NCBI GenBank assembly: GCA_017960605.1
Contig: JAGCYV010000019.1
Coordinates: forward strand, 1-56,889
Direction: 5' to 3'
Source: Bacteroidales bacterium
Lineage (GTDB): Bacteria; Bacteroidota; Bacteroidia; Bacteroidales; P3
Length of the DNA: 56,889 nt
Below, one piece after another: positions 4,365 through 21,550 of the stretch. Position 1 is the stretch's first letter. The number at the start of each line of letters is the position of its first letter. The notes under the pieces were generated by a model, which saw only the letters and a list, made by a program, of their open reading frames with translations, did not search any database and was not told the origin of the DNA. Both the position numbers and the translations under genes were made by a program.

Positions 4365-4391
4365 AGTTAAGGAGATAAGGAGATAAGACAA
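4365..4391. repeat. Short-repeat array, 3'-side arm of four-helix-bundle copy 1
   Basis: This arm has two copies of the 8-mer GGAGATAA followed by GACAA. The 21 bp at 4371-4391 are an exact reverse complement of 4806-4826 on the other side of the four-helix-bundle gene, so the gene is enclosed by an inverted repeat made of array units. Read in the gene's direction, the sequence just before this array is GCATTTGTCTT, a motif that recurs at the other array borders. Confidence 0.75.
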
Positions 4392-4407
4392 ATGCATTTG
4401 CCTCAAC

Positions 4408-4782
4408 TCAATCTTCCCAACTCTTTCTTTTAGAAATGGAGAACATGTACCCATTCAACAACTTGCTTGTCTCTTCTATTTCATTAATCATATTGTCGGC
4501 CTCGGCAAAGGAGATGTAGTTAAAGTCACACGACAAATAGATATAGCACCGACATTCTTCAAGGCTACCCTGAGAATAGTTCAAAAAGCGGAGCTTGTCA
4601 TCTTTCCCAAGACGATTGTACCCTTCAGCGATATTGGCCGCAATTGACACGGCGGCACGTTGAAACTGAGAAGTCAATCCAAATCTTTCCTCTGCGGGAA
4701 ATCCCTTTGTAATGCGATATACGTGGTTGATAAACACCCGTGCTTTCTGCCACGCAATCACATCCTCGAACCGTGTCGTCAT
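4408..4782 (-). CDS. Four-helix-bundle protein (23S rRNA intervening-sequence / Avd-like family), copy 1
   Basis: This 124-residue protein belongs to the small helical family first named from an open reading frame in 23S rRNA intervening sequences (TIGR02436) and related in fold to Avd of diversity-generating retroelements. The family signatures are FEDVIAWQKAR at the start, FGLTSQFQRAAVSIAANIAEG in the middle and LEECRCYIYL in the third helix. The cellular function is not known. About 83 of 124 residues match the copy at 17011-17385. The gene sits between glnA and folK but is separated from both by short-repeat arrays that are inverted relative to each other. No rRNA or reverse transcriptase is nearby. 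This suggests a small insertion unit rather than an operon member. Confidence 0.85.
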   Translation of the reverse strand: MTTRFEDVIAWQKARVFINHVYRITKGFPAEERFGLTSQFQRAAVSIAANIAEGYNRLGKDDKLRFLNYSQGSLEECRCYIYLSCDFNYISFAEADNMINEIEETSKLLNGYMFSISKRKSWED

Positions 4783-4805
4783 ATATTCTTTTGTATAATG
4801 GACTA

Positions 4806-4945
4806 TTGTCTTATCTCCTTATCTCCTTATCTCCTGTCTCCTTATCTCCTTATCTCCTTATCTCCTGTCTCCTTATCTCCTGTCTCCTTATCTCCTGTCT
4901 CCTTATCTCCTTATCTCCTTACCTCCTGTCTCCTTATCTCCTTTA
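4806..4945. repeat. Short-repeat array, 5'-side arm of four-helix-bundle copy 1
   Basis: About 140 bp are built of 8-mers CTTATCTC and 7-mers CTGTCTC (plus-strand reading), about 17 units in all. In the direction of the flanking minus-strand genes it reads GGAGATAAGGAGACAGG, so the transcript would contain many AAGGAGA segments. It begins directly after the glnA stop codon and ends shortly before the four-helix-bundle start. Its inner end is the exact inverted copy of 4371-4391. Confidence 0.85.
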
Positions 4946-4946
4946 A

Positions 4947-6452: not shown

Positions 6453-6534
6453 GATATATATAGGGGTTTAAACAATTGGTTCGGGTATAACGTAAAAGCA
6501 ATAGTTTTATTGTGTTTAACAATAGAATAATTAG

Positions 6535-6668
6535 GGAGTAAAGGGAGACAGGAGATAAGGAGACAGGAGAAAAGACAATACCAATTGCCCTTCATAATTG
6601 ACGCAACAAAAGCAATCGTCTTACCTCCTTATCTCCTACCCTCCTTATCTCCCCAACTCTTTACCTCC
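6535..6668. repeat. Inverted short-repeat arrays with no gene between them (empty element)
   Basis: The left arm (6535-6580) is built of GGAGACA and GGAGATAA units. The right arm (6616-6668) has CTCC-ending units such as CTTATCTC. Only about 35 bp lie between them. The left arm ends AAAAGACAATACCAATT, closely matching AAAGGCAATACCCAATT just before the ATG of the second four-helix-bundle gene. The right arm begins AAGCAATCGTCTTACCTCC, resembling the 3' border GCATTTGTCTTATCTCC of copy 1. It therefore looks like the same element without its gene. The rest of the 6453-6744 gap holds the glnA leader and a terminator. Confidence 0.65.
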
Positions 6669-6692
6669 TCAACCCTTTACCTCTTAAACGCA

Positions 6693-6721
6693 GGAGGGGC
6701 GCCCCGACGGGGCGCCCCTCC
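6693..6721 (-). terminator. Hairpin downstream of the giant T9SS protein gene
   Basis: This is a perfect GC-rich inverted repeat, with arms GGAGGGGCGCCCC and GGGGCGCCCCTCC around a 3-nt loop. It lies 24 bp beyond the stop of the minus-strand gene at 6745. No long U-run follows, so it may act as a terminator or as an mRNA-stabilising hairpin. Confidence 0.7.
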
Positions 6722-6744
6722 GCATTGCGGTGTTACACGCGCGC

Positions 6745-9700
6745 TTAGCGGGTCACAACGACACGCTTGGCGGCGGCGGTGCCGACCTTCACGAGATAGA
6801 CACCGGTATTGTTCATACGGAACTCGACGCGGTCACCGGCCTTCGGGGCAGCGTTCATCACGCGGCCGTTCAGGTCATAGACATACACGTTCTGGCCTTC
6901 GGCACCGAGCACGTAGATCACGCTCTCGTTGCTATAGACCTTCACGTTGTCCATAGTGACATCCTCGATGCCGACCTTCACGTCGAAGATGGCAAACAGG
7001 TACACATCCTCAGAGATAGAATCGATGATGTAGATCGACTCCTTGCTGAGGGTGTCGCGGTTGCGATCCAGCCAGGCGACGAACTTGTAGCCTTCGAGGG
7101 CGTTGGCCATGAGGGTCACGGGGCTGCCGGCAGCCACGGGCTCGGCCGGAATACCGGTCACATTACCCATGTTGTCGTCATACACGACCTGCACAGTGTA
7201 GGTGTTCTCGGGATTGGCGGCGAAGTTGGCCACGAGGGTGATGTCGCTGATCACGGTGATGGTGATGGTCGGAGTGGTCTCGCCAGTGCTCCAGTCCACG
7301 AAGTGGTAGCCGGGGTTAGCCACAGCGGTCAGGCTCACCGGGGTACCGGCTTCCACCGGTGCGGTGGGAACACCCAACACATAACCCATCGCGCTGTCGT
7401 TCACGGTCACCGTCACAGTGTAGCCCTGGGGCTGCGGAGCGTTGGTGTCCTGAGCGAAGATCGGGGAGACGTTGAAGATGTAACCATCCAGCAGCGCACC
7501 CACAGCGGGCAGGTCGCCGAAGGCATCGAAGAATTCAGCGTAAGCACTGTCGAGGTTCTCATTCTCATAGACAGTGTCGCCATCGCCGTTGATCATGGTG
7601 AACACCCAGTCGGCGAGCACATAGCCCTGAGCGGGCTGAGCCGTCAGCGAGAGAATATCGCCAGTGGTGAAGTAGTGGGTGCCGGGAGCGGGAGTGGTGG
7701 TACCTCTCGTCGGGTCGGGCACGTTGACAATCAAGGTCACAGTGTCGGGCTCGGCGGCACCGGCAGCGAAGTTAGCCGTCACAAAGAATTCATAAACGTG
7801 GTCGCCAGCCTCCACCGTGTCATAGCCAATCAGAGTGAACACATCGACCTCGGCAATATTGAGGGTGGTGTCAATTATAGCAACTACGGTATCGTAACCA
7901 TAGGACGAGTAATCCATCGTAACACGGATGGTCCAACCCTCGAGGTGGTAGCCGGCTGCGGGCTGAGCCACAACGCTGGCCACATCACCCTCATAGAAGT
8001 AGTGTACGCCGGGGGCGGGCACAGTGGTACCCATCGTCGGGTCGTTCACGGCCACGGTCACCTTCACGCTGTCAGGTGCAGGCATCGGAGCGGCACCAAC
8101 AGTCAGGCTGATGTCGTCGATGAGCAGGTAGTTCTGGTCGTAGCTGTCGTGGTGGTGGAAAGCGATATAGACGCTCTGACCGGCATAAGCCGAGAGATCA
8201 ACCACCTTGTTCACCCAGTCGTTGGTGCTGTCGGGATTGACGGCAAGCAGCGTGGTGGTGAAGGCCGCGGTGTCGGCGGTGGTAGTGGAGAGCATCACAT
8301 CGTAGAGCTCGGTGGGATAGTTGGCCGAAACCTTGTGCCACCAGGCGAGGTTCAGGGTGTCACCGGCAGCAATGGTCGGCAGGACGAACTTCGGCGAGAT
8401 CATCCAAGCGTTGGCATGGACGGCGCCAGAGTAGTACGACACCGAGACAGCCATAGCGTTGCCGCTGTGGGCAGTGATGTTGCTGTTGGAAGTCGTTGTG
8501 AACCAAGGATAGCCGTCGGCGCTTCCGTTCACGGTGCTCCAGCAGCCGAGACCGTTCTCAAAGCCTTCCATGTAAGGCAGCGTGGTAACATCGGCGCAAG
8601 CAGTCATGGCGTTGATGGTCATCATCGCAGCACTGTCGGTAGCCGAGCAGATGGCCTGCACGCCGAAGGTGTAACCCGTGCCGGCGGTCAAGCCGGTGAA
8701 GGTGTAGTTGGTGGTGGTCACGTTGGCCACGAAGGTGCTGCCGTTATAGACATCGTAGCTGGCGGCGGTACCGGTCCAGCTGATGCTCACGCTGGTGGTG
8801 CTGACGCTATCGACCGTCAGGCCGCTGACAGCCATGCAGCTCGGGCAGGGATCGGTCATCGTGTAGAAGGTGCCAGAGAGGTTGGTGGCATCGCTGATGG
8901 TGTAAAGCGGGGCGCCGCCACCATCGACAAGTGCGAAGGTAATCTCGTCAGGATAGCTGTAAGAGCCACCGCTGGTCCAGCTGAAGGTCACAGGAACACC
9001 GCTGCACACGCTCACCGAGAAGGTGTCGTAGATGGTAACGTTAGACTGATCCTGGTCAGCCATGCTGTAGGTAGCCACAGTGGCACCGTTCTGGCTGATG
9101 GTGATAGTGTTGCCATTCCAGCCGTCGCCCCAAGCATCCTGAGCATAAATCTTGATGGTGCAGCTGCCGCCGGCGCAGTCGGTCGTGGCGCTGACGGTGG
9201 CAGCGTTCGAGGTCTCGGTAGCGGAGCAGTTGGCCACCACACCGAAGATGTAGGTCGTGCTGGCGGTCAGTCCGGTCACCTCGTAGTTGGTGGTGGTGAT
9301 GCCGGTAGCCACAACGGAACCGTTGTCGCTGATGATAGAGTAGGTGGCGCCGGTGTTGTCAGCGTCGGTCCAGCTCAGGAAGACGCTGGTGGCGGTCACG
9401 CTATCGACCGTCAGATTGCTGACGGGCATACAGGCAGGAGCCACACCAGGCGTGTAGGCGAAGGTGGTCTTCGGCAGGAAGTCGCGCTGAGTGGCGCTGC
9501 CGGAACCGTAGCTGCTCATCGAAGCGCCGGTGGCGGCGACACCGTACCAGGTGCTGGTAACCCACTGGCCAGTAGCCGTCTGGCTGAAGGCCACCTGCAG
9601 GTTGCCGCCCATGTACTGGTAAGGAGTGGTGAAGGTGACTTCCATCTTGTTGTCAACAATGGAGAGGCTGCCAGCATAGACCTGGGTCATGGTGGTGAGG

Positions 9701-12700
9701 TCGGCATAAGCCGACAGGGTGGTCTCGTTGGTCTCGGTCAGATAGACGTTGAACGTGGCCACACCCCAGTCCACACTGGCCTGGGTGGCATAGAAGGTCA
9801 TCTTGTTGATGTTGCCGTAAGCCATAGCGCTCAGGCTGGCAGCGGGGATGATGAACTGGCTCTTCGTCAATTCGTCAACATACAGGCCATACACAGGCAC
9901 AAAGCCGTTGGTGGCGGTGCCATCGTTCACGGTGATGGTGTAGGCGTTGGTCGGAGTGAAGACCAGCGTGGTCCAGGCACTCTTGTCATCGACGTCACAG
10001 ACGGCGCGCACCTTCACGGTGTCGGCCACCTCGGGAGTGAGGCCGGTGAAGCTATAGGTGGAGTCGGTGACGCTGATCAGGTTGGTCATGTCGCCGTTGA
10101 GGCAAATCTCCCAAGCAGTCTCTTCGTCGCCGGCGTGCCAGTTGATGGTGGCCACAGTGCCGTCACCGGGGGTGAGGGTGGCTGCCAGACCGGTGGGAGC
10201 CGGGCAGGAAATCAGCGTGGTGAAGGTCACCGTGACGGTGTCGCTCTCCTCGGTGCCGCAGTCAGAGGCCACACCGAAGGTGTAGGTCGTCTGGCCGCTG
10301 AGGCCGGTGAGGGTCACTGTGTTGTCGGCAACAGACTGCACCAAGGTGCTGTCGGCCATATTATAGACATTGTAGCCGGTGGCAGTGCCCGTCCAGGTCA
10401 GCGTGGCGCCGTGGGCCTCGATGTTCGTGGCGGTCAGGCCGGTCACATGCACACAGGCGGGAATGGCTCCGACGGTCACATCGTCAAGGTAGATGTAGGC
10501 GTCGCCGTTGCCCCAGTTACTGGTGCCCTGGAAATAGACAACCACATTTTCATCCACCAACTCGGCGGGCAGGATGTATTCGGCCAAGGTCCAGTCGCTG
10601 GCACCGGTAAGGTTGGTGGCGAGGGTGGTACGGGTTGCGGAACCCTCAACACCCACCATCACGGTGAAGTCGCCGCCGGTGGGGTTCTTGTACCAGAAGC
10701 TCAGCTGGGCTGCTTCGTCGATGGCAATCACCGGGGTGGCCAGCACGTTGGTGTTGCCGTTGCTGTTGCTATAGGAGTTGAAGCGCAGGCCGACACCGTC
10801 GTGGCCGGTGGCATAGTAGTTCCACTTGTAAGAGGCGCTGGTGGTGGTACCCTCGCTGTTGTCCCAGCAGCTGGGGATGCCGCTGGTGAGCGTGTTGAAG
10901 TTCTCAGCGAAGGGCATTGCAAAGGCGGCGCAAGCGGTGCGGAAGGTCACAAAGACCGTGTCGCTCTCATCGGTGCCGCAGTCGGCGGTCACACCATAGG
11001 TGTACTCGGTGTTGGCGGTCAGGTTGGTGAGGTCAATGGTAGCGGTGGTGACATTCTGCACGAGGGTGCCGTTGTCATAGACATTGTAGCTGGTGGCATC
11101 GCCTGTCCAGGTCAGCGTGGCACCATCGGCGGTGATATTGCTGGCGGCCAGAGCGGTCACAGCCGGGCAGGCGGGAATGGTGTAACCCGTGACAGCCATG
11201 GTGCTCACATAAGCCTTATAGTTGCAACCCGTCGAGGTGTAGTTGATAGCCAAACGGTTAGCGGTCAGAGGCACATTGAAGGTCAGGGTCTGCCAATCAC
11301 TGTATCCAGTGGTGCTATATTCGGCGGTCCAGGTATAGTCGCTGGGCGTGGTGCTGCCAGTGGTGGCATAACCGAAACGCAGCGGGTCGGCAGTGCCGTG
11401 CGTAGCATAGATCACAGTCACTTGGATGGAGTCGGCGTCGGTCAGTGCGCTGGCATCCAGCATCGGCGAATAAGCATACTGGAAGTAGTCGCTAGCGGTG
11501 CTCCACGAGTTGAACACAATTACCGTGCTGTCACTGTATGTGGTGAAGCCAAAGTAGTTGCTGCTCGTCGTAGAAGTGGAGGCATTGGCGGTGTTGTTGC
11601 TGACGAGGGTCCAGCAACCGGCATTGGCAGCCGCGAAAGTCTCGGTCCAAGGCAGAAGTTCAGCTTCGCAAGCGGTATGGCCGCTGACGGTGACAACGGG
11701 AGAAGACTCGGTAGCCGAGCAGTTGGCCACCACGCCGAAGGTATAAGCCGTGTTGGCGGTCAGGCCGGTGGCGGTGTATGTGGTGCCTGTGATGCCGGTG
11801 GCCACAACCGAGCTGTCGCTCATGTCGTACACCGTATAGGTGGCGCTGGGGTTGACAGCGTCAGTCCAGTTCAGCGTGATGCTGTTGGCGGTGATATTGC
11901 CGGCAGTCAGGTCGCTGATCTCGACGCAGCTGGGCATCTCCTCGAGGAGGATGTCGTCGACGTATACATACCAGGTCGAAGCGGGACGGTTGGCGCGGAT
12001 GGCTACGAAGGTGCCGTTGCCGTTGTAGCCGTTCAGGTTGACGGTGTATTCGGCCCAAGTGGTACCCTCAATGATGACGCTGTCGACAGCCACGAAGGTG
12101 TTGATGTCGTGAGCGTCGGTCAGCACGCCAACAATGAACACCGGCTCATATGAAGCGTTGGATTCTTTGGCCCAGAACTTCAGACGGCAGTCGCTGACGC
12201 TGTAGCTACCGCCGAGGCTGGGAAGCACTATGCACTGGTAGTCGCCATAATAGGTGCCTGCACTGTTGGAGTTGGTCCAATAGAGACCCTTGGTGCCGCC
12301 CTCGGTATGGTTGTAGGTAGTAGAACTGCTAATATAAGGCTGACCGAAATACTGCGTGCCGTTGTTCAAGCGGTTCCAGCACTCTGCAAAGGCGGCACTG
12401 GTGCTGCTGCCGGTGGCCTCAGCCTCGAAGTTCTGGAGGTAGGGCAGCGTGGTCATGGCGTCGCAGTCGGTGTGGACGTTGACGGTAGTCGCGGTCGAAG
12501 CCTCGGTGGCCGAGCAGTTGGTCACAACGCTGAAGGTGTAGTCGGTGTTGCCGGTGAGGCCAGTAGCGGTGTAGGTCATAGCGCTGATGCCGGTGGCGAT
12601 GACGCCGTCGGCGTCAGACACCGTGTAGGTGGCGCCAGTGTTGATGGTGTCAACCCAGTTCAGGGTCACGCTGTTGTTGGTGATGCCGCTGACGGTCAGG

Positions 12701-14220
12701 TTGACGACGCGGGCGCAGCTCGGCAGGTTCTCGACGACGATGTTGTCGATACCGCAGGCCACATTGGTGTAGCTGGAGGTGGAGGTGCCGTTGTGCACAC
12801 CCGAGAACTTGAAGGCCAGACGGGCGCCGGCGGGAGCGGCGGCGGCCAGGCCGGAGAGGTTCAGGTCGACAACATGCTGTGTGGCGGTGACGGCATTGGC
12901 CGACCACATGCTCACAAAGGTAGTCACGTCATCATTGGTGACATAGCCAAGTTCGAGCACTGCGGCGGCGCCGGTGGCGCTGTAGGCGGAGCTCATCTTG
13001 TAGTCAAAGCCTATCTGCAAGCCGTTAATCGGCGTGGCAAAGGCGGGCATGACAGCATAACGGACGTCACCGCGAGCGGTGGCATAGCCAAGATAACTGC
13101 TGCTGGTGACAGCGGAACCTGTCAGCTGGATAGGCATGTAGAGGTAGGGGTTGCCGGACACCATGGAGCCGTAGCTGGTACTCGTAATCTGAGCCACGCC
13201 GCCGTAGTAGGCAGAAGAGCCGCTGGTCTCAGCGGTGTTGGTACCGTTGGAATAGTATATCCAACAAGCCGGCAAAACGGAAGGACCATAATAAGGACTA
13301 GATGTGCTGGCGAAACCGGTGTAGCCATTGAACTCCTCAACATAGGGTAAGGCTTGCGTGACAGCGCAGCCAGTACGGCCCATGGCAAACGACTTTACGG
13401 CTTCGTCGCCGGCGCCGCAGTTGGCGGCAACAGCAAAGGTGTATACCGTATTGGCATCAAGGCCTGTTGCAGTGTAAGTTGTAGCGGAAACGTTGCCGAG
13501 GAGGTTGGTGTCAGTCGCGGTAACAGTGTAGATGTTATAGGTGGCGCCGGTGTTATTGGCGTCAGTCCAAGTCAGTGTCAAGCTATTAGCGGTGGTCTGC
13601 GCACCGTCGATGGCCAAATTGGTCACAGGGAAGCAGGAAGGAACCTCGGTGAAGGTGGTCTTCGGGAGGAAGGCGGTGTGGTTGGGTGAAGACATGGTCG
13701 AGTAGGTCGAGCCAATGTTGTCCACACCATAGCAGCCTTGGTTGCTGGAGCCGAAATAGTTGCCAGAGGCACCGGAGGTTTGGATCTCAACAATGAGGTT
13801 GCCTCCATTGTAGGTGTAGGGCGTGGAGAACTCGAACGAGAACACGCCGTTGACAACAACCAGATTGCCGGCATAGACGGTGGTCAGCGTCTGGCTGCTT
13901 AAACCCGCGGAGAGGTCGGTCTCCGTGGTCTCGGCCATACGGATGTACCACGTCGAAGCGGTAAGGGTTTTGTTTGCGGTGGTGTTCTGGTGGTAGAATG
14001 TGATTGCACCAATGGTGCTACCATTCATACTCGTAAGCAGCGATGCCGGATAGAGCATCTGGGCCTGCCTATTACCAGAACCATCACAGTTGTAGAAATC
14101 CAGTGGTACCTTGGCGTGGGTGGTAGTACCATCAGCCACGGTCCAGGAATTCTGCGCTTGCATCGCGAAGGGCAGCAGCATGGCCGCCACAATCGCTAAA
14201 GTTCGTAGAAACTTTTGCAT
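6745..14220 (-). CDS. Giant multidomain surface protein with T9SS type A sorting domain
   Basis: This predicted secreted, cell-surface-attached protein has about 2,491 residues. I start it at the ATG at 14220, giving MQKFLRTLAIVAAMLLPFAMQAQ, a good signal peptide; an upstream ATG at 14262 would add 14 residues before it. Eight fibronectin-III-like modules are seen, most beginning with C-P/M-x-V-x-x-L and containing LTWTD or LTWTG. Jelly-roll modules with LPYxExF starts alternate with them. A roughly 130-residue N-terminal module (ending FLPKTTF) is repeated in mid-protein. One GWGDGWNG-type module is present. Four divergent InlB-type B-repeats (TMGTTVPAPGVHYF, GYHFVDWSTGE) precede the C-terminal sorting domain NVYVYDLNGRVMNAAP...VVVTR. 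The last is recognised by the T9SS and removed on attachment. The ligand is unknown; adhesion is plausible. Confidence 0.9.
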   Translation of the reverse strand: MQKFLRTLAIVAAMLLPFAMQAQNSWTVADGTTTHAKVPLDFYNCDGSGNRQAQMLYPASLLTSMNGSTIGAITFYHQNTTANKTLTASTWYIRMAETTETDLSAGLSSQTLTTVYAGNLVVVNGVFSFEFSTPYTYNGGNLIVEIQTSGASGNYFGSSNQGCYGVDNIGSTYSTMSSPNHTAFLPKTTFTEVPSCFPVTNLAIDGAQTTANSLTLTWTDANNTGATYNIYTVTATDTNLLGNVSATTYTATGLDANTVYTFAVAANCGAGDEAVKSFAMGRTGCAVTQALPYVEEFNGYTGFASTSSPYYGPSVLPACWIYYSNGTNTAETSGSSAYYGGVAQITSTSYGSMVSGNPYLYMPIQLTGSAVTSSSYLGYATARGDVRYAVMPAFATPINGLQIGFDYKMSSAYSATGAAAVLELGYVTNDDVTTFVSMWSANAVTATQHVVDLNLSGLAAAAPAGARLAFKFSGVHNGTSTSSYTNVACGIDNIVVENLPSCARVVNLTVSGITNNSVTLNWVDTINTGATYTVSDADGVIATGISAMTYTATGLTGNTDYTFSVVTNCSATEASTATTVNVHTDCDAMTTLPYLQNFEAEATGSSTSAAFAECWNRLNNGTQYFGQPYISSSTTYNHTEGGTKGLYWTNSNSAGTYYGDYQCIVLPSLGGSYSVSDCRLKFWAKESNASYEPVFIVGVLTDAHDINTFVAVDSVIIEGTTWAEYTVNLNGYNGNGTFVAIRANRPASTWYVYVDDILLEEMPSCVEISDLTAGNITANSITLNWTDAVNPSATYTVYDMSDSSVVATGITGTTYTATGLTANTAYTFGVVANCSATESSPVVTVSGHTACEAELLPWTETFAAANAGCWTLVSNNTANASTSTTSSNYFGFTTYSDSTVIVFNSWSTASDYFQYAYSPMLDASALTDADSIQVTVIYATHGTADPLRFGYATTGSTTPSDYTWTAEYSTTGYSDWQTLTFNVPLTANRLAINYTSTGCNYKAYVSTMAVTGYTIPACPAVTALAASNITADGATLTWTGDATSYNVYDNGTLVQNVTTATIDLTNLTANTEYTYGVTADCGTDESDTVFVTFRTACAAFAMPFAENFNTLTSGIPSCWDNSEGTTTSASYKWNYYATGHDGVGLRFNSYSNSNGNTNVLATPVIAIDEAAQLSFWYKNPTGGDFTVMVGVEGSATRTTLATNLTGASDWTLAEYILPAELVDENVVVYFQGTSNWGNGDAYIYLDDVTVGAIPACVHVTGLTATNIEAHGATLTWTGTATGYNVYNMADSTLVQSVADNTVTLTGLSGQTTYTFGVASDCGTEESDTVTVTFTTLISCPAPTGLAATLTPGDGTVATINWHAGDEETAWEICLNGDMTNLISVTDSTYSFTGLTPEVADTVKVRAVCDVDDKSAWTTLVFTPTNAYTITVNDGTATNGFVPVYGLYVDELTKSQFIIPAASLSAMAYGNINKMTFYATQASVDWGVATFNVYLTETNETTLSAYADLTTMTQVYAGSLSIVDNKMEVTFTTPYQYMGGNLQVAFSQTATGQWVTSTWYGVAATGASMSSYGSGSATQRDFLPKTTFAYTPGVAPACMPVSNLTVDSVTATSVFLSWTDADNTGATYSIISDNGSVVATGITTTNYEVTGLTASTTYIFGVVANCSATETSNAATVSATTDCAGGSCTIKIYAQDAWGDGWNGNTITISQNGATVATYSMADQDQSNVTIYDTFSVSVCSGVPVTFSWTSGGSYSYPDEITFALVDGGGAPLYTISDATNLSGTFYTMTDPCPSCMAVSGLTVDSVSTTSVSISWTGTAASYDVYNGSTFVANVTTTNYTFTGLTAGTGYTFGVQAICSATDSAAMMTINAMTACADVTTLPYMEGFENGLGCWSTVNGSADGYPWFTTTSNSNITAHSGNAMAVSVSYYSGAVHANAWMISPKFVLPTIAAGDTLNLAWWHKVSANYPTELYDVMLSTTTADTAAFTTTLLAVNPDSTNDWVNKVVDLSAYAGQSVYIAFHHHDSYDQNYLLIDDISLTVGAAPMPAPDSVKVTVAVNDPTMGTTVPAPGVHYFYEGDVASVVAQPAAGYHLEGWTIRVTMDYSSYGYDTVVAIIDTTLNIAEVDVFTLIGYDTVEAGDHVYEFFVTANFAAGAAEPDTVTLIVNVPDPTRGTTTPAPGTHYFTTGDILSLTAQPAQGYVLADWVFTMINGDGDTVYENENLDSAYAEFFDAFGDLPAVGALLDGYIFNVSPIFAQDTNAPQPQGYTVTVTVNDSAMGYVLGVPTAPVEAGTPVSLTAVANPGYHFVDWSTGETTPTITITVISDITLVANFAANPENTYTVQVVYDDNMGNVTGIPAEPVAAGSPVTLMANALEGYKFVAWLDRNRDTLSKESIYIIDSISEDVYLFAIFDVKVGIEDVTMDNVKVYSNESVIYVLGAEGQNVYVYDLNGRVMNAAPKAGDRVEFRMNNTGVYLVKVGTAAAKRVVVTR

Positions 14221-14361
14221 GATGTTTTGATTTTTGGTTAATAAATAAGGTTTGTTATACATTTGATTTTCTTTCAGTCAAACTCATTTCAGAACAATCT
14301 TGTCTTCTTCCACATAGGTATCACTTGCGACTTTTCCATTTTCATTCTATCCATATGTCTC

Positions 14362-14718
14362 TTATTCTGTTTCAGGAAGTTCCTCAATGAAAGACATTAC
14401 TTGTTTCCTCAGCGGCGGAAGTTCTTCGTGGATAATAATCCACAACTCAGGGAAGTCTATTTTATAGTAGTCGTGCACCAAGACATGACGCAAACCAATG
14501 ACGTCTTTCCACAACACCTCGGGATGGGAGGCACAGAACTCTTTGGTCAGTTTGTATGCCGCCTCGCCAATAATCTGTAAATTGTGTGCAACGGCATGGC
14601 GAAGCATCTTATTGTCAACAAGTTCTTCGAGAGTTACCCCCTGCGTAAACTCGTTCACATTGTCGATGGCTTCCAACATGTGTTGCAAACGTCCTCTATC
14701 TCTAATTGCCTCTCTCAT
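14362..14718 (-). CDS. hepT: HepT-like toxin (DUF86, HEPN family)
   Basis: This small HEPN protein of 118 residues has the catalytic RX4HXY motif as R77, H82, Y84 (RHVLVHDYY). HepT proteins act as RNases or as targets of AMP-adding antitoxins. The gene overlaps the upstream nucleotidyltransferase gene by 17 bp, the normal MntA/HepT arrangement with antitoxin first. The conserved LVHDYYKID segment is intact, so the toxin is probably functional. The pair lies between the T9SS cargo gene and the M24 peptidase, unrelated to either. It may serve in genome maintenance or phage defence; the sequence alone does not tell. Confidence 0.9.
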   Translation of the reverse strand: MREAIRDRGRLQHMLEAIDNVNEFTQGVTLEELVDNKMLRHAVAHNLQIIGEAAYKLTKEFCASHPEVLWKDVIGLRHVLVHDYYKIDFPELWIIIHEELPPLRKQVMSFIEELPETE

Positions 14719-14992
14719 AGATTATCTTCTTGTCACGGTTGGCGGTTTTCTCGGCGAAAGGGAGCAGTGTGCCGTTGGTCACGAGGTCAACCTGCTTGCT
14801 CAGAAGTTCTTGCAGCTCGTTCTTGATGTGCACATGTTGCAGCAATCCCACGTGGTCGTCGAAGTCAACGAGGATATCCACATCGCTGTCTTCACGCTCC
14901 TCCCCACGGGCATAAGAGCCAAAGAGCCAGGCTCTCTGCACCGGTTGGGTCGCGAAATAATCGCGGATTGTCTGTAGCATCTGTTCGCTCAT
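14702..14992 (-). CDS. mntA: MntA-like minimal nucleotidyltransferase antitoxin
   Basis: This minimal nucleotidyltransferase has 96 residues, with the pol-beta signature GSYARG at 25-30 and catalytic aspartates in SDVDILVDFD (D37, D39). In characterised MntA/HepT systems the antitoxin neutralises HepT by adding AMP residues to the tyrosine of the HEPN motif. Here the helix carrying GSYARGEEREDSDVDI is complete. Promoter boxes lie 60-90 bp upstream, and hepT follows with a 17-bp overlap, so the two are co-transcribed and probably translationally coupled. Confidence 0.9.
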   Translation of the reverse strand: MSEQMLQTIRDYFATQPVQRAWLFGSYARGEEREDSDVDILVDFDDHVGLLQHVHIKNELQELLSKQVDLVTNGTLLPFAEKTANRDKKIIYERGN

Positions 14993-15051
14993 TTGTTTAC
15001 CTGACTGTTTCTGTTGGCGTTGCTTTTCTGGGGATGGTATAATCCAATGTG

Positions 15052-15083
15052 CAAAGGTACGAAATCTTTTTCATTCGGCCAAA
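15052..15083 (-). promoter_or_regulatory. Promoter of the mntA-hepT pair
   Basis: On the minus strand, TTTG (15080-15083) and TACCTTTG (15052-15059) are 20 bp apart, matching TTTG / TAnnTTTG. Transcription would begin around 15045, about 50 nt before the mntA start. Confidence 0.8.
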
Positions 15084-15227
15084 GAAAAAAAGCATCGAGG
15101 GCGACTTATTAACATTGCCAGTATTGATTCCCAGCAACTTAACAGAAAAACTTTAACTTTTCCACCAAGCTCTCCCCGACCCTCTCTTCGCTGCCGACTT
15201 GCCCCCACCTCAGGCTTGCCCCAGGGG

Positions 15228-15374
15228 TACCCTAGTGATACCCTAGTGTTACCTTAGTGATACCCTAGTGATACCTTAGTAGTACCCTAGTGTTACCTTA
15301 GGGGTACCTCCGTACATCGTACCTGGGCATTACTAGGGCAATACTAGGTCAATACTAGGTCAATACTAGGTCAT
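15228..15374. repeat. 11-bp periodic array with TAC-CTAGT core, about 12 units
   Basis: Units such as TACCCTAGTGA, TACCTTAGTGA and TACCCTAGTGT repeat every 11 bp from 15228 to about 15315. After a 4-bp phase shift a second block (15320-15374) continues with TACTAGGGCAA and TACTAGGTCAA. It is the main content of the 538-bp gap between mntA and the M24 peptidase gene. I see no ORF in that gap; the remainder holds the mntA promoter and a candidate promoter for the peptidase. The units contain CTAG or TTAG in every copy. Confidence 0.8.
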
Positions 15375-15464
15375 AAGGGTTGCAGAGCTGATTGTCAGCC
15401 GGTTGCAAAACACCTTTTCCAGAGGGATAAAAATATACCTGCGCGGGACAATAAAACGGCCCCG

Positions 15465-15493
15465 TTTGCGTTAACAAGCATGCTGTAATTTTA
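15465..15493 (+). promoter_or_regulatory. Candidate promoter of the M24 aminopeptidase gene
   Basis: TTTG at 15465-15468 and TAATTTTA at 15486-15493 are 17 bp apart. The second box differs by one base from TAnnTTTG and the spacing is slightly short, so this is weaker than the other promoters. It would give a leader of about 35 nt ending in an A-tract before the ATG at 15531. Confidence 0.4.
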
Positions 15494-15530
15494 CTCGGAA
15501 AAGAATCAAACAAAAAAAAACGACATAAAT

Positions 15531-16928
15531 ATGTTCAGTAAAGAGACTTACATCGCGCGGCGCGAGCAGCTGCGCAAGGACGTGGGGCACGGCCTCATCA
15601 TCATGCCGGGCAACCACGAGGCCCCGTGCAACTACAAGGACAACACGTACTGGTTCCGTCAGGACAGCACGTTCCTGTATTTCTTCGGCCTCCAGCGCGA
15701 AGACCTCATCGGCGTGCTCGATTGCGAGACGGGCAAGGACTATATCTTCGCCAACGACTACGACATAGACGACATTATCTGGACGGGTCCGCTGCCGAGC
15801 GTGAAGGAGCTGGCGGCCAGCGTGGGTGTGGAGAACACGGGCACCCCGAAGATGCTGCGCGACATCATCGCCACGATGAAGTCGCCCGTGAACGGCAAGC
15901 CGATGCCGCACTACCTACCCCCCTATCGCGCCGACATCCGCGCCGACCTGACGGATCTGCTGGGTGTGCCCTACCCGCAGGTGAACCGCCACGCCTCGAT
16001 GGAGCTCATCCTGGCTTGCGTGAAGCAGCGCATGATCAAGAGTCCCGAGGAGATCGCCGAAATCGAGAAAGCCATCGCGACGGCTTACAATATGCACGTG
16101 GGAGCCATGAAACTGGCCATGCCCGGCCGCTACGAGTACGAGCTGGCGGGCTTCATGGAGGGCGAAGCCTGGAAGGGCAACGGCCCCGTGAGCTTCCCCG
16201 TCATCATGACGGTGCACGGCGAGACCCTCCACAACCACGGACACAACAACCGCCTCGAGGTAGGCCGCATGCTGGTGATGGACGCCGGCTGCGAGACGCC
16301 GATGAACTACTGCTCCGACATCACCCGCACGGTGCCCGTGGGAGGCCGCTTCGACGAGCGTCAGAAGACAATTTACGAAATCGTGCTCAGCGCCCAGCTG
16401 GAGGCCGCCGCCGTGACGCGCCCGGGCATCACCTACAAGGAGGTGCACCAGGCCGCGAGCCGCAAACTGGCCGAAGGCTACCGCGCCCTTGGCATCCTCA
16501 AGGGCAGCGTGGATGACATCGTGGAAGCCGGCGCCCACAGCCTCCTCATGCCCCACGGCCTGGGCCACATGATGGGCCTCGACGTGCACGACATGGAGAA
16601 CTACGGCCAGATCAACGTGGGATACGACGAGGAGACGCGTCCGAGCGAGCAGTTCGGCTTGGGCAGCCTGCGCTGCGGCCGCCGTCTGCAGCCGGGCTTC
16701 GTCATCACCGACGAGCCGGGATGCTACTTCATCCCCGCCCTGATCGACAAATGGCGCGCCGAGGGCACCTGCAAGGACTTCGTGAACTTTGACGAGCTGG
16801 AGAAATGGAAGGACTTCGGCGGCATCCGTATCGAGGACGACGTGCTGGTGACCGAGACGGGCAGCCGCATCCTCGGCAAACCGATACCCAAGACGGTGAA
16901 GGAGATCGAGGAGGTGATGGCGCAGTGA
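15531..16928 (+). CDS. pepP: Xaa-Pro aminopeptidase (M24B family, AMP_N domain)
   Basis: This cytoplasmic metallo-aminopeptidase of 465 residues removes N-terminal residues preceding proline. Residues about 1-140 are the AMP_N domain (SKETYIARREQLRKDV...DSTFLYFFGL). The rest is a creatinase-fold domain carrying the dinuclear metal ligands: aspartates in MDAGCETPMNYCSDITRTV, histidine in HGLGHMMGLDVHD, and glutamates in TDEPGCYF and GIRIEDDVLVTE. All expected ligands are present. Length fits the PepP group. The ATG follows an A-rich leader (AAAAAAAAACGACATAAAT). Codon GC content is high compared with the AT-rich repeats that follow. Confidence 0.92.
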   Translation: MFSKETYIARREQLRKDVGHGLIIMPGNHEAPCNYKDNTYWFRQDSTFLYFFGLQREDLIGVLDCETGKDYIFANDYDIDDIIWTGPLPSVKELAASVGVENTGTPKMLRDIIATMKSPVNGKPMPHYLPPYRADIRADLTDLLGVPYPQVNRHASMELILACVKQRMIKSPEEIAEIEKAIATAYNMHVGAMKLAMPGRYEYELAGFMEGEAWKGNGPVSFPVIMTVHGETLHNHGHNNRLEVGRMLVMDAGCETPMNYCSDITRTVPVGGRFDERQKTIYEIVLSAQLEAAAVTRPGITYKEVHQAASRKLAEGYRALGILKGSVDDIVEAGAHSLLMPHGLGHMMGLDVHDMENYGQINVGYDEETRPSEQFGLGSLRCGRRLQPGFVITDEPGCYFIPALIDKWRAEGTCKDFVNFDELEKWKDFGGIRIEDDVLVTETGSRILGKPIPKTVKEIEEVMAQ

Positions 16929-16948
16929 ATATGCCTCGTGAATATGGG

Positions 16949-17001
16949 AAGTTATAGAAGTTAAAGAAGTTATCGCGCTACGCGCTAGAAGTTAAAGGCA
17001 A
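16949..17001. repeat. Short-repeat array, 5'-side arm of four-helix-bundle copy 2
   Basis: Units of GAAGTTAAA/GAAGTTAT are interrupted by the palindromic CGCGCTACGCGC. The inner end GAAGTTAAAGGCAA is a near-exact inverted copy (one base gap) of TTGCTTTAACTTC at 17391-17403, after the gene. The layout is the same as around copy 1 but with a different unit sequence. Confidence 0.75.
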
Positions 17002-17010
17002 TACCCAATT

Positions 17011-17385
17011 ATGACAAATACGTTTGAGGATCTTGTCGCATGGCAAAAGGCCAGAGTATTTATCAAACACACCTATCAACTGACAAGCCGGTTCCCCCAT
17101 ACGGAGCAATTCGGGCTCACATCACAGTTCAGGCGTGCCGCCGTATCTATCGCTGCCAACATCGCTGAGGGATATAAACGTATGGGAAAAGACGACAAAC
17201 TCCGATTCTTTAACTATTCCCAGGGAAGCCTTGAAGAATGTAGATGCTATATCATCTTGTCGCAAGACCTCCAATATATTACAGAAGAAGAAAGCGCATC
17301 GCTCCTTCAAGAAATCGAAGACACAAGCCGACTGCTTAACTCCTACTGCAGCGCCATAACAACAAGAAAGACCTGGGACGCCTGA
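17011..17385 (+). CDS. Four-helix-bundle protein (23S rRNA intervening-sequence / Avd-like family), copy 2
   Basis: This 124-residue paralogue of the protein at 4408-4782 has the same length and is collinear. The central block LTSQF-RAAVSIAANIAEGY and the LRF-NYSQGSLEECRCYI block are nearly unchanged, while the C-terminal helix (from about residue 90) is the most diverged. The function of the family is unknown. The gene lies between an M24 peptidase and a nucleoside kinase on the same strand, but repeat arrays separate it from both. The spacing from the 5' array to the ATG is only about 10 bp (CAATACCCAATT), with no Shine-Dalgarno sequence. Being enclosed by inverted arrays at both loci argues for spread as a unit. 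Confidence 0.85.
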   Translation: MTNTFEDLVAWQKARVFIKHTYQLTSRFPHTEQFGLTSQFRRAAVSIAANIAEGYKRMGKDDKLRFFNYSQGSLEECRCYIILSQDLQYITEEESASLLQEIEDTSRLLNSYCSAITTRKTWDA

Positions 17386-17390
17386 TGCTT

Positions 17391-17682
17391 TTGCTTTAAC
17401 TTCTTTAATTCTTTAACACCCAAGAAAAAAACAGCAGAATAGATTAAAGTCGCCAAAAGCATTTGTCTTTAACTTCTTTAACTTCTTTAATTCTTTAACT
17501 CCCAAGAAGAAAAACAGCAGAATAGAATAAAGTCGCCAAAAGCATTTGTCTTTAACTTCTTTAACTTCTTTAATTCTTTAACTCCCAAGAAGAAAAACAA
17601 CAGAATAGAATAAAGTCGCCAAAAGCATTTGTCTTTAACTTCTTTAACTTCTTTAATTCTTTAACTCCCAAGAAGAAAAAAA
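17391..17682. repeat. 83-bp tandem repeat built on a CTTTAACTT array
   Basis: This fills the interval between the four-helix-bundle gene and the nucleoside kinase. Units beginning CTTTAACTT start at 17394, 17467, 17550 and 17633; the last three are spaced exactly 83 bp, and the first is shorter by one 9-mer. Each unit has a short array (CTTTAACTT, CTTTAATT), then CCCAAGAAGAAAAACAG, AGAATAAAGTCGCC and AAAAGCATTTGT, which leads into the next array. The final partial unit ends in the A-rich leader of the kinase. The copies differ at only a few bases, so amplification was recent. Confidence 0.9.
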
Positions 17683-19383
17683 ATGAACAAAGTCGAGATT
17701 GTGCTCGCGAATACGGGCGAGCGGATGATGGTCGAGCCGGGGACTCAGGTCGCCCAGCTGGCAGAAGAGTATGTGAAACAAAAGACCGCGGCCGACGGGA
17801 AAGCCCCGTGGCCCATCCTCGGAGCCCTGGTGAACAACGAGGTGGAGCCGCTGCATTTCCGGATTTACACCCCCAAGGTAGTGAAACTGCTGGACATCCG
17901 CGACCGCCAAGGGTTCCGCATGTACCGCAACGCGCTGTGCCTCATGCTCTACAAGGCCGTACACGACTGCTACCCAACGGCACATCTCTCGATTGACCAC
18001 TCGCTGCAGAACGGCTTCTACTGCCGCATCGAACCTACGGAGGAAGCTGATAGCAATGAGTCTCTAGCAGATAAAATGGAGGTGTGCCGCACGGTGCGGG
18101 AACGCATGATAGCGCTGCAGGAGCAGGACCTGCCCTTCACCAGCGAGACCCTGCTGATGAACGACGCCATCGACCTCATCCGCCCGCGGGAAATAGACCG
18201 CACGCTCTATATCCTGGAGCACCTGCGACAGCTGTATATCGAGATGAACTTTCTCGACGACACGGTACACAAAGTCAACGGCAAGCTGGCTCCGAGCACG
18301 GGATGCATCACCACATGGGACTTCCGCACCTACGAGGACGGCTACCTGCTGCTGTGCGCCGACCCCGAACATCCCGACAAGCTGTCGATGTTCAGCGACA
18401 CCCCGAAGCTCTTCGCCATCTTCCGCGAGCACCACAAATGGGTCGATCTGCTGCACACGCCGACGGTGAGCGACTACAACCGCATCGTGCACGAGGGCGG
18501 CGGACAGCAGCTGATACTGCTGGCCGAAGCGCTGCACGAGAAGAAATATGCCGAAATCGCCGAACAGGTGCGTCAGAGCGGCACCCGGATGGTGCTGCTG
18601 GCCGGTCCGAGCAGTAGCGGAAAGACCACCTCGTGCCGCCGCCTGAGCGTGCAGCTCTCGGTGCTGGGCTACGACGTGAACCAGCTCTCGCTCGACGACT
18701 ACTTCCTCGGTCGCGACCGCACCCCCAAGTTGCCCAATGGGGAATATGACTTCGAGAGCGTCGATGCCCTCGACATACCGCTGCTGAACGAACACCTCAA
18801 CGCCCTCTTCCGCGGCGAGGAGGTGCAGATACCGACCTACGACTTCATCAAGGGCGAGCCGTTCTACAGCGGCAAGACGCTGAAACTGGGCCCCCAAAGC
18901 ATCCTCGTGGTGGAGGGCATCCACGCCCTGAACCCCAAGCTCACGGCCGAGATCGACGAAGGACTGAAATACAAGGTCTATGTCAGCGCCCTCACCCAGC
19001 TGGCCATCGACGACCTGAACATCATCCACGGCACCGACAACCGGCTGGTGCGCCGCATCGTGAGGGACAACAACTTCCGCGGCTGGAACGCCTATCAGAC
19101 GATACACCGGTGGCCCGAGGTGGTGCGTGGCGAAAGGATCCACATCTTCCCCTATCAGGAGAACGCCAACGTGATGTTCAACAGCGCGCTGCTGTATGAA
19201 CTAGGCGTACTGAAACGCTATGCAGAGCCGCTACTGAAACAGGTGCCGGAAGATTGCGAGGAGTATTCGATTGCGAAGCAGCTGCTGACCTTCTCGGAGC
19301 TGCTGCTGCCCATCGACGACAAGTTCATCCCGTACAACAGCATCATGCGCGAGTTCCTGGGCGGGAGCACGTTCGAATACTAA
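17683..19383 (+). CDS. Nucleoside (uridine) kinase with N-terminal TGS-like domain
   Basis: This 566-residue protein is typical of Bacteroidota 'nucleoside kinases'. Residues about 1-60 resemble a TGS domain. Residues about 60-280 resemble the editing or second additional domain of threonyl-tRNA synthetase. The last 270 residues are a uridine kinase/phosphoribulokinase domain with the P-loop GPSSSGKTT near residue 308 and an SLDDYFLGRDRTP segment. It probably phosphorylates uridine or cytidine in pyrimidine salvage; the job of the N-terminal part is unknown. The 3' end overlaps the convergent shikimate kinase gene by 4 bp. The leader is the last unit of the 83-bp repeat, so expression could depend on that array. 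Confidence 0.87.
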   Translation: MNKVEIVLANTGERMMVEPGTQVAQLAEEYVKQKTAADGKAPWPILGALVNNEVEPLHFRIYTPKVVKLLDIRDRQGFRMYRNALCLMLYKAVHDCYPTAHLSIDHSLQNGFYCRIEPTEEADSNESLADKMEVCRTVRERMIALQEQDLPFTSETLLMNDAIDLIRPREIDRTLYILEHLRQLYIEMNFLDDTVHKVNGKLAPSTGCITTWDFRTYEDGYLLLCADPEHPDKLSMFSDTPKLFAIFREHHKWVDLLHTPTVSDYNRIVHEGGGQQLILLAEALHEKKYAEIAEQVRQSGTRMVLLAGPSSSGKTTSCRRLSVQLSVLGYDVNQLSLDDYFLGRDRTPKLPNGEYDFESVDALDIPLLNEHLNALFRGEEVQIPTYDFIKGEPFYSGKTLKLGPQSILVVEGIHALNPKLTAEIDEGLKYKVYVSALTQLAIDDLNIIHGTDNRLVRRIVRDNNFRGWNAYQTIHRWPEVVRGERIHIFPYQENANVMFNSALLYELGVLKRYAEPLLKQVPEDCEEYSIAKQLLTFSELLLPIDDKFIPYNSIMREFLGGSTFEY

Positions 19384-19853
19384 AAAACTGGATGGGTTCC
19401 GTCAAGAATAACGGGGGCTCGTAGATAGACGGGCTCCCGTTCTTTGAGTTGGCGCTCGATGGTGGCGCGCATCTCGGGTTCGGGGAGGCCGTGCATCAAA
19501 GGACGCGGGTTGCGGCTGCGGAGGGCCCGCTCGACGAGGGCATCAACAGGCATACGCAGATAGATGGCGGTACCGTGGGCGAGGATGAAGTCCATATTGC
19601 CACTGTGACAGGGAGTGCCGCCGCCGGTGGCGATGACGTAGTTGTCGAGGTCGGCGGTGGAGAGCAGCAACTGAGTCTCCAGCTTGCGGAAAGCCTCCTC
19701 GCCGAAGCGCGAGAAGAACATGGGGACGGTGTAGTGATAGCGGGCCTCGAAGGCGCGGTCGATATCGAGGAATGTCATGCCTCGCTCATCCGCCAGCTTC
19801 CGCCCGAAGGTGGATTTGCCACAATACATGTATCCCACAAGGTAATAGTTCAT
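19380..19853 (-). CDS. aroK: Shikimate kinase
   Basis: This enzyme phosphorylates shikimate with ATP in the chorismate pathway. The protein has 157 residues, slightly short but complete. The P-loop is GYMYCGKST (K13, S14), the shikimate-binding DIDRAFE and R residues follow, and the ATGGG motif lies near residue 77. The LID region RSRNPRPL is present. It is the last gene of the minus-strand run starting at 35.3 kb and is separated from recN by a repeat array. aroQ, another step of the same pathway, is far away at 54.2 kb. Confidence 0.92.
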   Translation of the reverse strand: MNYYLVGYMYCGKSTFGRKLADERGMTFLDIDRAFEARYHYTVPMFFSRFGEEAFRKLETQLLLSTADLDNYVIATGGGTPCHSGNMDFILAHGTAIYLRMPVDALVERALRSRNPRPLMHGLPEPEMRATIERQLKEREPVYLRAPVILDGTHPVF

Positions 19854-19858
19854 AATTC

Positions 19859-19899
19859 AGGAGTTAAGGAGACAGGAGATAAGGAGATAAGGAGTTAGG
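19859..19899. repeat. Solo short-repeat array between recN and aroK
   Basis: About five units of GGAGATAA/GGAGACA/GGAGTTA are on the plus strand, with no partner arm and no four-helix-bundle gene. The recN stop codon TAA (19895-19897) lies inside the first unit, and the array ends about 8 bp before the aroK ATG. In the mRNA it would read as pyrimidine-rich CUCC repeats. Confidence 0.75.
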
Positions 19900-21550
19900 A
19901 CATCAGTTCTTTGGCAGTTTGGAGGGCGGCAGCGGTCGGGGGGTCGCTGCTGAGCATGGTGGCCACCTCGGTGACGCGGTCGGAGGCATCGAGTTCGCGG
20001 ATGAGCGATACGGTGCGGTCACCGTCGGTCTCCTTATAGACTTTCAGGTGCTGTGCCGCCCGGGCGGCAATCTGGGGCAGGTGTGTGATGGCGATAACCT
20101 GCATCTTCTCCGCCATACGGCTCATGATGCGGCCCACAGCCACCGAGATGTCGCCGCTGACGCCGGTGTCTATCTCATCGAAGATGATGGTGGGCAGCAG
20201 GGTACGGGAGGTGAGCATGCTCTTGACGGCCAGCATCAGACGCGACAACTCGCCGCCGCTGGCCACCTTGGAGAGGTCGCGCAGTTCGCCACCGCGGTTG
20301 GCGTTGAAGAGGAACTGCACAGCATCATGTCCCATGGGACCGTAATCAGGCAGATCGGTGAGTGAGACACTGAATCGGGCTTCGGGCATGCCAAGTTCGT
20401 GCAACGTAGGCAGGATGCCCTTCGAGAGTGTGTCGCCAGCCTGACGACGGGCCTTGGTGAGGCTGTCGGCGGCGGATTGAACACGTGAGAAAGCCTTATC
20501 GACCTGCCCTTGGAGGTCGCGAATGCGGTCGTCGAGGGTGGCGATGCTTTGCAGGCGACGGTCGAGGTCGTCGCGGAGGACGATGAGGGATTCCACGGAA
20601 TCCACGCCATGTTTCTTCTGGAGGCGGTAAAGCAGCGCCAGACGGTCGTCAATCTGCTGCTGACGCTCGGGGCTATAGCTGACGGATTCGGCGGTATGCT
20701 GCAACTCGCGGTTGATGTCGTCGAGTTCTATCAGGGTGGAGTCGAGCCGCGAGAGCAACGCCTCGGCATCGGGATGATAGGCGGCGATATGATCCAACGC
20801 CGCCTTTGCCTGCCGTAGGCCCGAGAGTACCGCCTGAGTTCCATCGCCGTCGAGCAAGGTGGCGGCAGTGGCCAGTCCTTCGCGGACCGACTCGGCGTGA
20901 GCCATCAGACGAGACTCCTGCTCGAGGGGCTCCTGCTCACCCTCAACGAGGGCGGCAGCGGAGAGTTCGTCGTACTGGAACTGAAGATAGTCCTGCTCAC
21001 GGCGGTTCTGAGCCTCGGTAGAGGTCAGTTCTTCGAGGTCTCGCTTGAGGCGAGAGTACTCAACGTAAGCAGATTGGTAAGTATTCAGCGTTGAAGGGTT
21101 AGTGGATAGTGTGTCGAGAAGCGAGATTCGGAAGCGGCTGTCGGCGAGGGTGAGCGTCTGGTGCTGGGAGTGGATGTCGATGATGGCAGCACCGAGGCTG
21201 CGGAGGAATGGCAGCTGGACGGGGGTGTCGCCGGCGAAAGCACGACTGCGTCCCGTAGGCAAGATTTCACGGCGCAGGATGAGCTGATCGTCGTAATCGA
21301 CATCGGCCTCAGCGAAGATGGGTTCCAGCCCCAAGCCGGAGATGTCGAACTGGGCTTCGACAATGCACTTACGCTCTTTGTCGGCCAAAACGGCGGTGTC
21401 GGCCCGCTGACCGAGCAGCAGCCCGAGGGCGCCAAGCATGATACTCTTACCCGCACCCGTCTCGCCGGTGATGGCCACGAAACCCGGCCCGAACGAGATA
21501 TCGGTCTTACGGATGAGGGCGTAGTTTTCTATATGGAGTGTTGTAAGCAT
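19895..21550 (-). CDS. recN: DNA repair protein RecN
   Basis: RecN is an SMC-like ATPase acting early in double-strand break repair. The protein has 551 residues, the usual length. The Walker A GETGAGKS is at 29-36. The central region (about 160-370) is charged and helical, fitting the short coiled coil. The ABC signature SGGELSRLML is near residue 431, followed by Walker B TIIFDEIDTGVSG and the ITHLPQIAARA motif. The last codon and stop are formed by a repeat array, so the C-terminus may vary between strains. The gene lies 3 bp downstream of sufS. Confidence 0.94.
   Translation of the reverse strand: MLTTLHIENYALIRKTDISFGPGFVAITGETGAGKSIMLGALGLLLGQRADTAVLADKERKCIVEAQFDISGLGLEPIFAEADVDYDDQLILRREILPTGRSRAFAGDTPVQLPFLRSLGAAIIDIHSQHQTLTLADSRFRISLLDTLSTNPSTLNTYQSAYVEYSRLKRDLEELTSTEAQNRREQDYLQFQYDELSAAALVEGEQEPLEQESRLMAHAESVREGLATAATLLDGDGTQAVLSGLRQAKAALDHIAAYHPDAEALLSRLDSTLIELDDINRELQHTAESVSYSPERQQQIDDRLALLYRLQKKHGVDSVESLIVLRDDLDRRLQSIATLDDRIRDLQGQVDKAFSRVQSAADSLTKARRQAGDTLSKGILPTLHELGMPEARFSVSLTDLPDYGPMGHDAVQFLFNANRGGELRDLSKVASGGELSRLMLAVKSMLTSRTLLPTIIFDEIDTGVSGDISVAVGRIMSRMAEKMQVIAITHLPQIAARAAQHLKVYKETDGDRTVSLIRELDASDRVTEVATMLSSDPPTAAALQTAKELMS

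Follow-up and report, generated by a model that had tools for sequence, protein, structure and literature searches.

An IVP gene between complementary repeat arrays in a Bacteroidales genome: a probable intervening-sequence-type hairpin element

Two IVP genes and their arms

The window, that is, the whole stretch of 56,889 nt analyzed here (contig JAGCYV010000019.1 of a Bacteroidales bacterium), contains an open reading frame at positions 17011 to 17385 of the plus strand, the 124-residue product of which belongs to the "23S rRNA intervening sequence protein" (IVP) family (PF05635, E = 4.8e-37; TIGR02436, four helix bundle protein, E = 3e-34) and is related to the solved structures 2gsc (E = 3.2e-17) and 2rld (E = 0.0011). 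In the ORF list it is flanked by a gene that we take to be PepP, aminopeptidase-like (15531 to 16928), and by one that is presumably UK, uridine kinase-like (17683 to 19383); the three genes lie on one strand. GAAGTTAAAG-type arrays and their complement enclose the IVP gene, as the earlier note had described. The 5' arm (16948 to 16998, plus strand) starts about 20 nt past the stop codon of the upstream host gene and is built of GAAGTTA(AAG) units with few C residues and a small TCGCGCTACGCGCTA insert; it takes part in inverted repeats I9 to I11 and I13 to I15. On the 3' side, CTTTAACTTC arrays complementary to the 5' array extend from 17390 to 17668, and the arm is found in four tandem copies with a period of 83 bp (3.5 copies according to Tandem Repeats Finder): the first (CTTTAACTTCTTTAATTCTTTAAC) at 17390 to 17418, the second, with a TTTGTC lead-in, at 17463 to 17502 (I9), the third at 17546 to 17585 (I10), and the fourth at 17629 to 17668 (I11). 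The arms are 20 to 21 nt long and 95% complementary. In the predicted RNA fold, which scores better than 20 of 20 shuffled sequences (z = -3.66), the 5' arm is paired with the fourth 3' arm, the one farthest from the gene. This unit, element 2, spans approximately 16948 to 17668; the IVP gene is the sole gene between its arms, with no transposase gene there. The window gave no Rfam match, indicating that element 2 does not lie inside an rRNA gene.

Element 1, on the minus strand, has the same organization. Its IVP gene (4408 to 4782, PF05635) encodes a protein 67% identical to that of element 2, the "about two-thirds" of the earlier note, and is enclosed by a 5' arm at 4806 to 4943 (GGAGATAAGGAGACAG units on the gene strand) and a 3' arm at 4365 to 4391 (inverted repeat I3, 27 nt, 96% complementary), both built of GGAGATAA units. 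The transcript of this element also folds better than all 20 of its shuffles (z = -2.99). The element 1 unit recurs in a gene-less hairpin at 6526 to 6661, whose arms (6526 to 6562 and 6625 to 6661; I2, 37 nt, 76% complementary) enclose a 62-nt loop, and a solo array of the GGAGATAA type is located at 19857 to 19906, a junction that carries a full element in a relative (L016). The earlier note held that the array units of the two genes differ fully; this was too strong, because mixed arrays, for example GGAGATAAAGAAGTTAGAG (L010), are found in relatives, and by their sequence the units of the two window elements look linked by drift. Nor do the two genes represent an independent recurrence, as they are members of one homologous element family. 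The units found in this genome (GGAGATAA, GAAGTTAAA, GTTGATA, and TTTCTAA) have no terminal sequence in common.

Several other repeats are present in the window. A gene-less inverted array of an 11-bp unit (TACCCTAGTGA / TACTAGGTCAA) is located at 15228 to 15370, upstream of the aminopeptidase gene; L096, L101, L076, L092, and L102 likewise have inverted arrays of 11-bp period, and these arrays possibly form a separate hairpin family. A 7-bp AGTGTTA array (34781 to 34861) lies within a minus-strand ORF (34082 to 35377) and is translated as an LNTKRLT-like repeat, and two nested inverted repeats (37 nt, 81%; 28 nt, 89%) are found at 38726 to 38871, the outer one having a GCGTAACA tandem unit. 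A HepT-like/nucleotidyltransferase gene pair at 14362 to 14992 (PF01934, PF01909) is likely a toxin-antitoxin module. Two contigs of the same genome carry IVP homologues without arms (L005 and L006, arm scores of 10 and 9.5), which are perhaps domesticated copies.

Matched arms, selection, and co-inheritance across the family

PF05635 proteins are present in 172 of 247 sampled Bacteroidota genomes. We gathered 154 distinct IVP genes, almost all of them from a single Bacteroidales family and mainly the best-scoring family-search matches, weaker ones being left out; four were dropped because of short flanks or open frames, and 150 were tested. The arm score was obtained by local alignment of the upstream flank with the reverse complement of the gene's own downstream flank (threshold, at least 15), and as a control, the arms of each element were exchanged with those of 40 other elements, including relatives that share the unit. 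Own arms had a median score of 21 versus 9.5 for swapped arms (95th percentile of swaps, 13.5; 99th percentile, 22). Complementary arms were found for 120 of the 150 genes, and 84 exceed all 40 swaps. In the wider Bacteroidota, 14 of the 30 best loci reach the arm score versus 2.6% of swaps, the last 48 nt of each ORF being included in the arm search for this sample and excluded for the 150-gene set. Among plasmid loci, scored without a swap control, 11 of 18 reach at least 15 (cyanobacteria, Gemmatirosa, Riemerella, and Azospirillum). The loci below the score number 30 of 150, 16 of 30, and 7 of 18 in the three sets; four of the seven plasmid loci (L150 and L152 to L154, scores of 9.5 to 11.5) have a 3' arm that overlaps the end of the ORF, L151 scores 14.5, and L155 and L162 have no arms.

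The repeat units vary widely, including GGAGATAA, GTAGTTAA, TTAGTGG, GTTGATA, AACGAAA, GTTTAAAG, TTGAGAA, and TTTCGGA, with a period of 7 being the commonest (41 of 120 elements), followed by 8 (23 of 120). GACAA/TTGTC is not a conserved inner motif, being found in both arms of only 24 of the 120 elements. A purine-rich strand on the 5' side of the gene had been proposed as a rule; it holds for both window elements, but across the family, only 76 of 120 5' arms contain more than 60% purine and 5 contain less than 40%, so that the rule is rejected as a general law; it is a weaker form of an excess of G over C, which holds better. The 5' arms of the 120 elements average 5.9% C versus 30.8% G, G exceeds C in 112 of 120 elements and at 53 of 60 sites, and 68 of 120 arms have at most one C. 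In one cluster (L073; genome G002, contig 7, positions 1 to 19900), seven IVP genes crowd into about 11 kb, and arms of the AACGAAA type flank two of the seven.

The type of unit is not random with respect to the protein. In 186 pairs of elements at different sites with 65 to 97% protein identity, the mean unit similarity was 0.408 versus 0.23 after shuffling (maximum of 300 shuffles, 0.274), which supports the suggested co-evolution of protein and array in the sense of co-transmission. In pairs at the same site, the element's own arms fit each other better than those of its relative in 139 of 173 comparisons, but when only the nearest same-site relative was considered, own arms won by no more than 44 versus 25 (of 75); these pair counts are non-independent. 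A clear case is L078 and L091, which occupy the same site and encode proteins 85% identical but have different units: their own scores were 20 and 24, whereas the crossed combinations gave 14.5 and 12.5. The arm of L091, paired with an arm of its relative L041, which shares its unit, gave a fit of 28.5. Units therefore follow the protein clade and yet drift, and the arms within one element mostly stay matched. The suggestion that the arrangement rather than the sequence matters is thus supported by both the 120 of 150 genes that have complementary arms of differing units and the better fit of own arms in same-site pairs.

The IVP is under purifying selection, because the median dN/dS was 0.05 (26 unsaturated pairs) and pN was lower than pS in all 60 pairs with at least 80% protein identity. 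Neighboring genes, taken as the longest ORF on each side (a crude gene call), are both in the sense orientation at 37 of 60 sites and both antisense at 3 (P = 2e-8); the other 20 sites are mixed. A rule of constant co-direction with both neighbors was rejected, since only 68 of 120 elements and 37 of 60 sites follow it. In these 68 elements, the 5' arm starts a median of 5.5 nt past the upstream stop codon. Selection on an RNA stem would be expected to leave an excess of G-U wobbles among the arm mismatches, but none was seen: 85 G-U versus 127 A-C mismatches were counted, and per element the comparison was 29 versus 40, with 51 ties (P = 0.23).

Insertion between host genes

Arms and gene form one insertable unit (arm, gene, arm), often located directly between a stop codon and the next start codon. 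At the aminopeptidase-kinase junction, 89 genomes of the genus were searched and 78 had a match; the best 30 of the 78, window included, were examined and classified by a combination of script and visual inspection. Twelve of these loci, again including the window, carry full elements, one with a truncated ORF; six are exact empty sites, with overlapping stop and start codons of the two host genes, three carry gene-less inverted arrays (L186, L193, and L197), two carry short scars (L179 and L184), and the remaining seven are of other kinds. Two further junctions are tight in the window, between genes that we take to be SufS and RecN and between presumed SprA and TPR-protein genes, and elements are found there in relatives (L013/L014 and L012).

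Comparisons of occupied and empty sites revealed one clean target duplication: the same insertion in Trichormus and Scytonema (L150 and L154), compared with the empty site in Nostoc linckia (L201), is bordered by the 5-bp duplication GTAAT, with flanks 98 to 99% identical. The other full/empty pairs are blurred. L161 overlaps by ATG when compared with L152 and by 7 and -3 when compared with two other relatives, and no clear target duplication was seen in L153/L208, L160/L207, L157/L200, and L151/L198. In the L156/L206 pair, the comparison failed because the relative carries another hairpin at the site. This hairpin in Dolichospermum (L206; TAGGTTGGGTTGACGC...AACCCAACCTA) is located at the cas6-cas4 junction; at this junction, Anabaena sp. 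90 carries an IVP element instead. Three IVP genes lie between cas genes (L151, L156, and L158; cas10-cmr3 and cas6-cas4), and Picosynechococcus PCC 7003 carries an element at the cas10-cmr3 junction, which is empty in PCC 7002 (L198).

The same element can also be found at unrelated sites. Three Nostocales plasmid elements are alike along the arms and the gene (one pair, 83% over 416 bp) and have unrelated surroundings. An IVP element is present on plasmid C of Trichormus variabilis ATCC 29413. Besides the gene-less arm pairs and scars observed where relatives have full elements, a search for gene-less inverted arrays away from IVP genes yielded 27 matches in 720 kb of loci versus none in a 2-mer-block shuffle; after removal of two masked N runs and four repeats of a same-contig locus, 21 are left, which were partly inspected. 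The earlier note overlooked the insertable nature of the unit and the architecture that it shares with rRNA intervening sequences (IVSs).

Proposed mechanism, alternatives, and relation to known systems

Building on the insertion, the pairing capacity, the drift of units with matched arms, the sense bias, and the selection on the protein observed for these elements, we consider it probable that element 2 is an IVS-type hairpin element, a mobile unit whose arms act by pairing. Such an element would be a mobile unit of about 400 to 700 bp in which inverted arrays of a mostly 7- to 9-nt repeat surround a single Avd-related IVP (S23p) gene. Upon transcription of the operon, the arms would form a long paired stem and thereby keep the insert apart from the host messages; this isolation, as we propose, is why insertion would be nearly harmless, in likeness to rRNA, where RNase III cuts the insert out. 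RNA would then be the acting form, possibly also cut by RNase III, and IVP may bind either its own RNA or the stem. If pairing is what identifies the arms, their sequence would be free to change provided that both arms change together. The long RNA stem suggested earlier is plausible in light of the fold z-scores, the sense orientation, and the relationship with rRNA IVSs, but the missing G-U excess does not favor it. The 20 of 60 sites with one flanking gene not in the sense orientation and the three with both antisense also count against the preferred reading, as do the genes that fall short of the arm score, the narrower margin of own arms over those of the nearest same-site relative, the single clean target duplication, and the probable lack of S23p expression in Coxiella.

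Because the arm mismatches lack a G-U excess, a DNA-level account keeps some weight, although we regard it as rather doubtful. It would treat the arms as terminal inverted repeats of a small transposon that is moved as DNA by enzymes acting in trans, in a form such as a cruciform or a single-strand hairpin and with no role for RNA, the arms being matched by template switching in quasi-palindromes together with slippage. The 5-bp GTAAT duplication, the MITE-like gene-less arm pairs, and an irregular unit present in both arms of L008 are consistent with this, whereas the sense bias (37 versus 3 sites) would be unexpected unless it reflects nothing more than dependence of the gene on a host promoter, the occurrence in rRNA does not fit, and there is no shared terminal sequence that an enzyme could read in trans, GACAA/TTGTC being as rare as described above. 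A partner enzyme was sought as RVT_1 and Y1_Tnp matches in 22 chosen genomes (the window's own, 10 element-rich, and 11 element-poor). RVT_1 was found in 11 of 22 and does not track element number, occurring in 5 of the 10 rich genomes and in 6 of the 11 poor ones; the window's own genome (78% complete) gave no RVT_1 match. Y1_Tnp was found in 10 of 22 genomes (the own genome, with one match; 6 of 10 rich; 3 of 11 poor), a gap that leans toward the DNA-level account but is too small to judge. It was absent from 12 of 22, among them G057, G131, G100, and G107 with 7 to 12 IVP genes each, and the element-rich G131, G100, and G107 (83 to 94% complete) matched neither model.

Avd-like proteins are generally regarded as nucleic acid binders. 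It is conceivable, if unlikely, that IVP binds its own unit in DNA or RNA, that the array is an operator or packaging site, and that the two co-evolve by contact; the homology of PF05635 with Avd described in PMC10053308, with Avd model matches here below the cut-off, and the tracking of protein identity by unit similarity at different sites would agree with such a partnership, but simple co-inheritance of arms and gene yields the same correlation, and L078 and L091 differ in their units at one site despite 85% identical proteins. The two readings without a mobile element fare far worse. Short tandem arrays are prone to slippage, and the 83-bp block of the 3' arm is itself repeated, yet the idea of non-functional slippage arrays around an immobile resident host gene is contradicted by the empty sites, the same element at unrelated sites, and the inverted matching with private units, which makes it very improbable. 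A function tied to the neighbors, such as an accessory Cas protein encoded between cas genes, is suggested by the 18 IVP genes reported in cas loci (PMC3936711) and by L151, L156, and L158; it is least credible of all, since armed IVP genes also occur between many other genes and the same cas junction lacks IVP in PCC 7002.

With IVS-type elements as the preferred reading, 120 of 150 IVP genes with matched arms and several demonstrable inserts imply that the orphan PF05635 protein is likely the sole protein of a mobile element. No established function is given for PF05635 proteins in the available parts of PMC4990558, PMC3936711, and PMC11270868. More broadly, and only tentatively, we suggest a structure-recognized element class in which private complementary arrays drift freely as long as the arms agree and the sole protein is an Avd-like hairpin chaperone (RNA or single-stranded DNA); in many phyla, the class might spread by settling between the genes of operons, and it might have given rise to rRNA IVSs, to cas-locus IVP genes, and to many orphan heptamer arrays. 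Already under the preferred reading, the rRNA IVSs would gain a large family of relatives in protein operons, at least some cas-locus IVP genes would be explained as insertions, and short tandem arrays would have a route into intergenic sites. A mobile element with ends free to change their sequence would be unusual. Our literature search, with subscription papers and most preprints outside it, found no account of inverted arrays around IVP genes other than those in rRNA.

Among known systems, the Avd proteins of diversity-generating retroelements are remote homologues of IVP (NF033474, E = 3.8e-9, below the cut-off), but the own genome, at its 78% completeness, is without an RVT_1 match, as is half of the 22 genomes. 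MITEs and insertion sequences share with the elements inverted ends, gene-less derivatives, and, in one case, a short target duplication; they differ in that no transposase is encoded between the element arms and the ends vary between copies of one genome. REP/RAYT systems also place hairpins between genes, but the element encodes IVP rather than a Y1 transposase, and only 10 of 22 genomes have Y1 matches. The cyanobacterial STRRs are heptamer arrays. According to PMC4679880, tandem heptamers in Beggiatoaceae (TAACTGA), cyanobacteria, and some Bacteroidetes adjoin start codons in many cases, with no evident transfer mechanism. These tandem 7-mers resemble the arms; unlike them, the Beggiatoaceae and cyanobacterial arrays are, as described, direct and lack a carrier gene, and we infer that heptamer arrays may be linked to IVP elements.

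The closest likeness is with the IVSs of 23S rRNA, the origin of which was still called unclear in 2016 (PMC4990558). The same source reports IVSs with an S23p ORF in Coxiella and Leptospira; in that of Coxiella, the stem measures 28 bp, GACAGAT heptamers stand in tandem ahead of S23p, and RNase III excises the insert, and its S23p was judged probably not expressed, whereas the IVPs analyzed here are clearly selected. IVP genes are also reported in rRNA inserts of CPR bacteria (PMC11270868). Both kinds have the same protein family, a long terminal stem with the ORF in its loop, and tandem heptamers in the 5' arm, known on the rRNA side from Coxiella and Azospirillum; the elements of the window differ in lying between protein genes and in having units that vary from element to element. 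They are built like rRNA IVSs yet lack the defining location in rRNA. Because an Azospirillum IVP gene (L167) lies inside 23S rRNA (RF02541, 2529.5 bits; the Rfam test covered this locus and the window) and has similar heptamer arms of the GAGGACG/GGACAGA type, the elements of the window and the classical rRNA IVSs appear to be of one kind.
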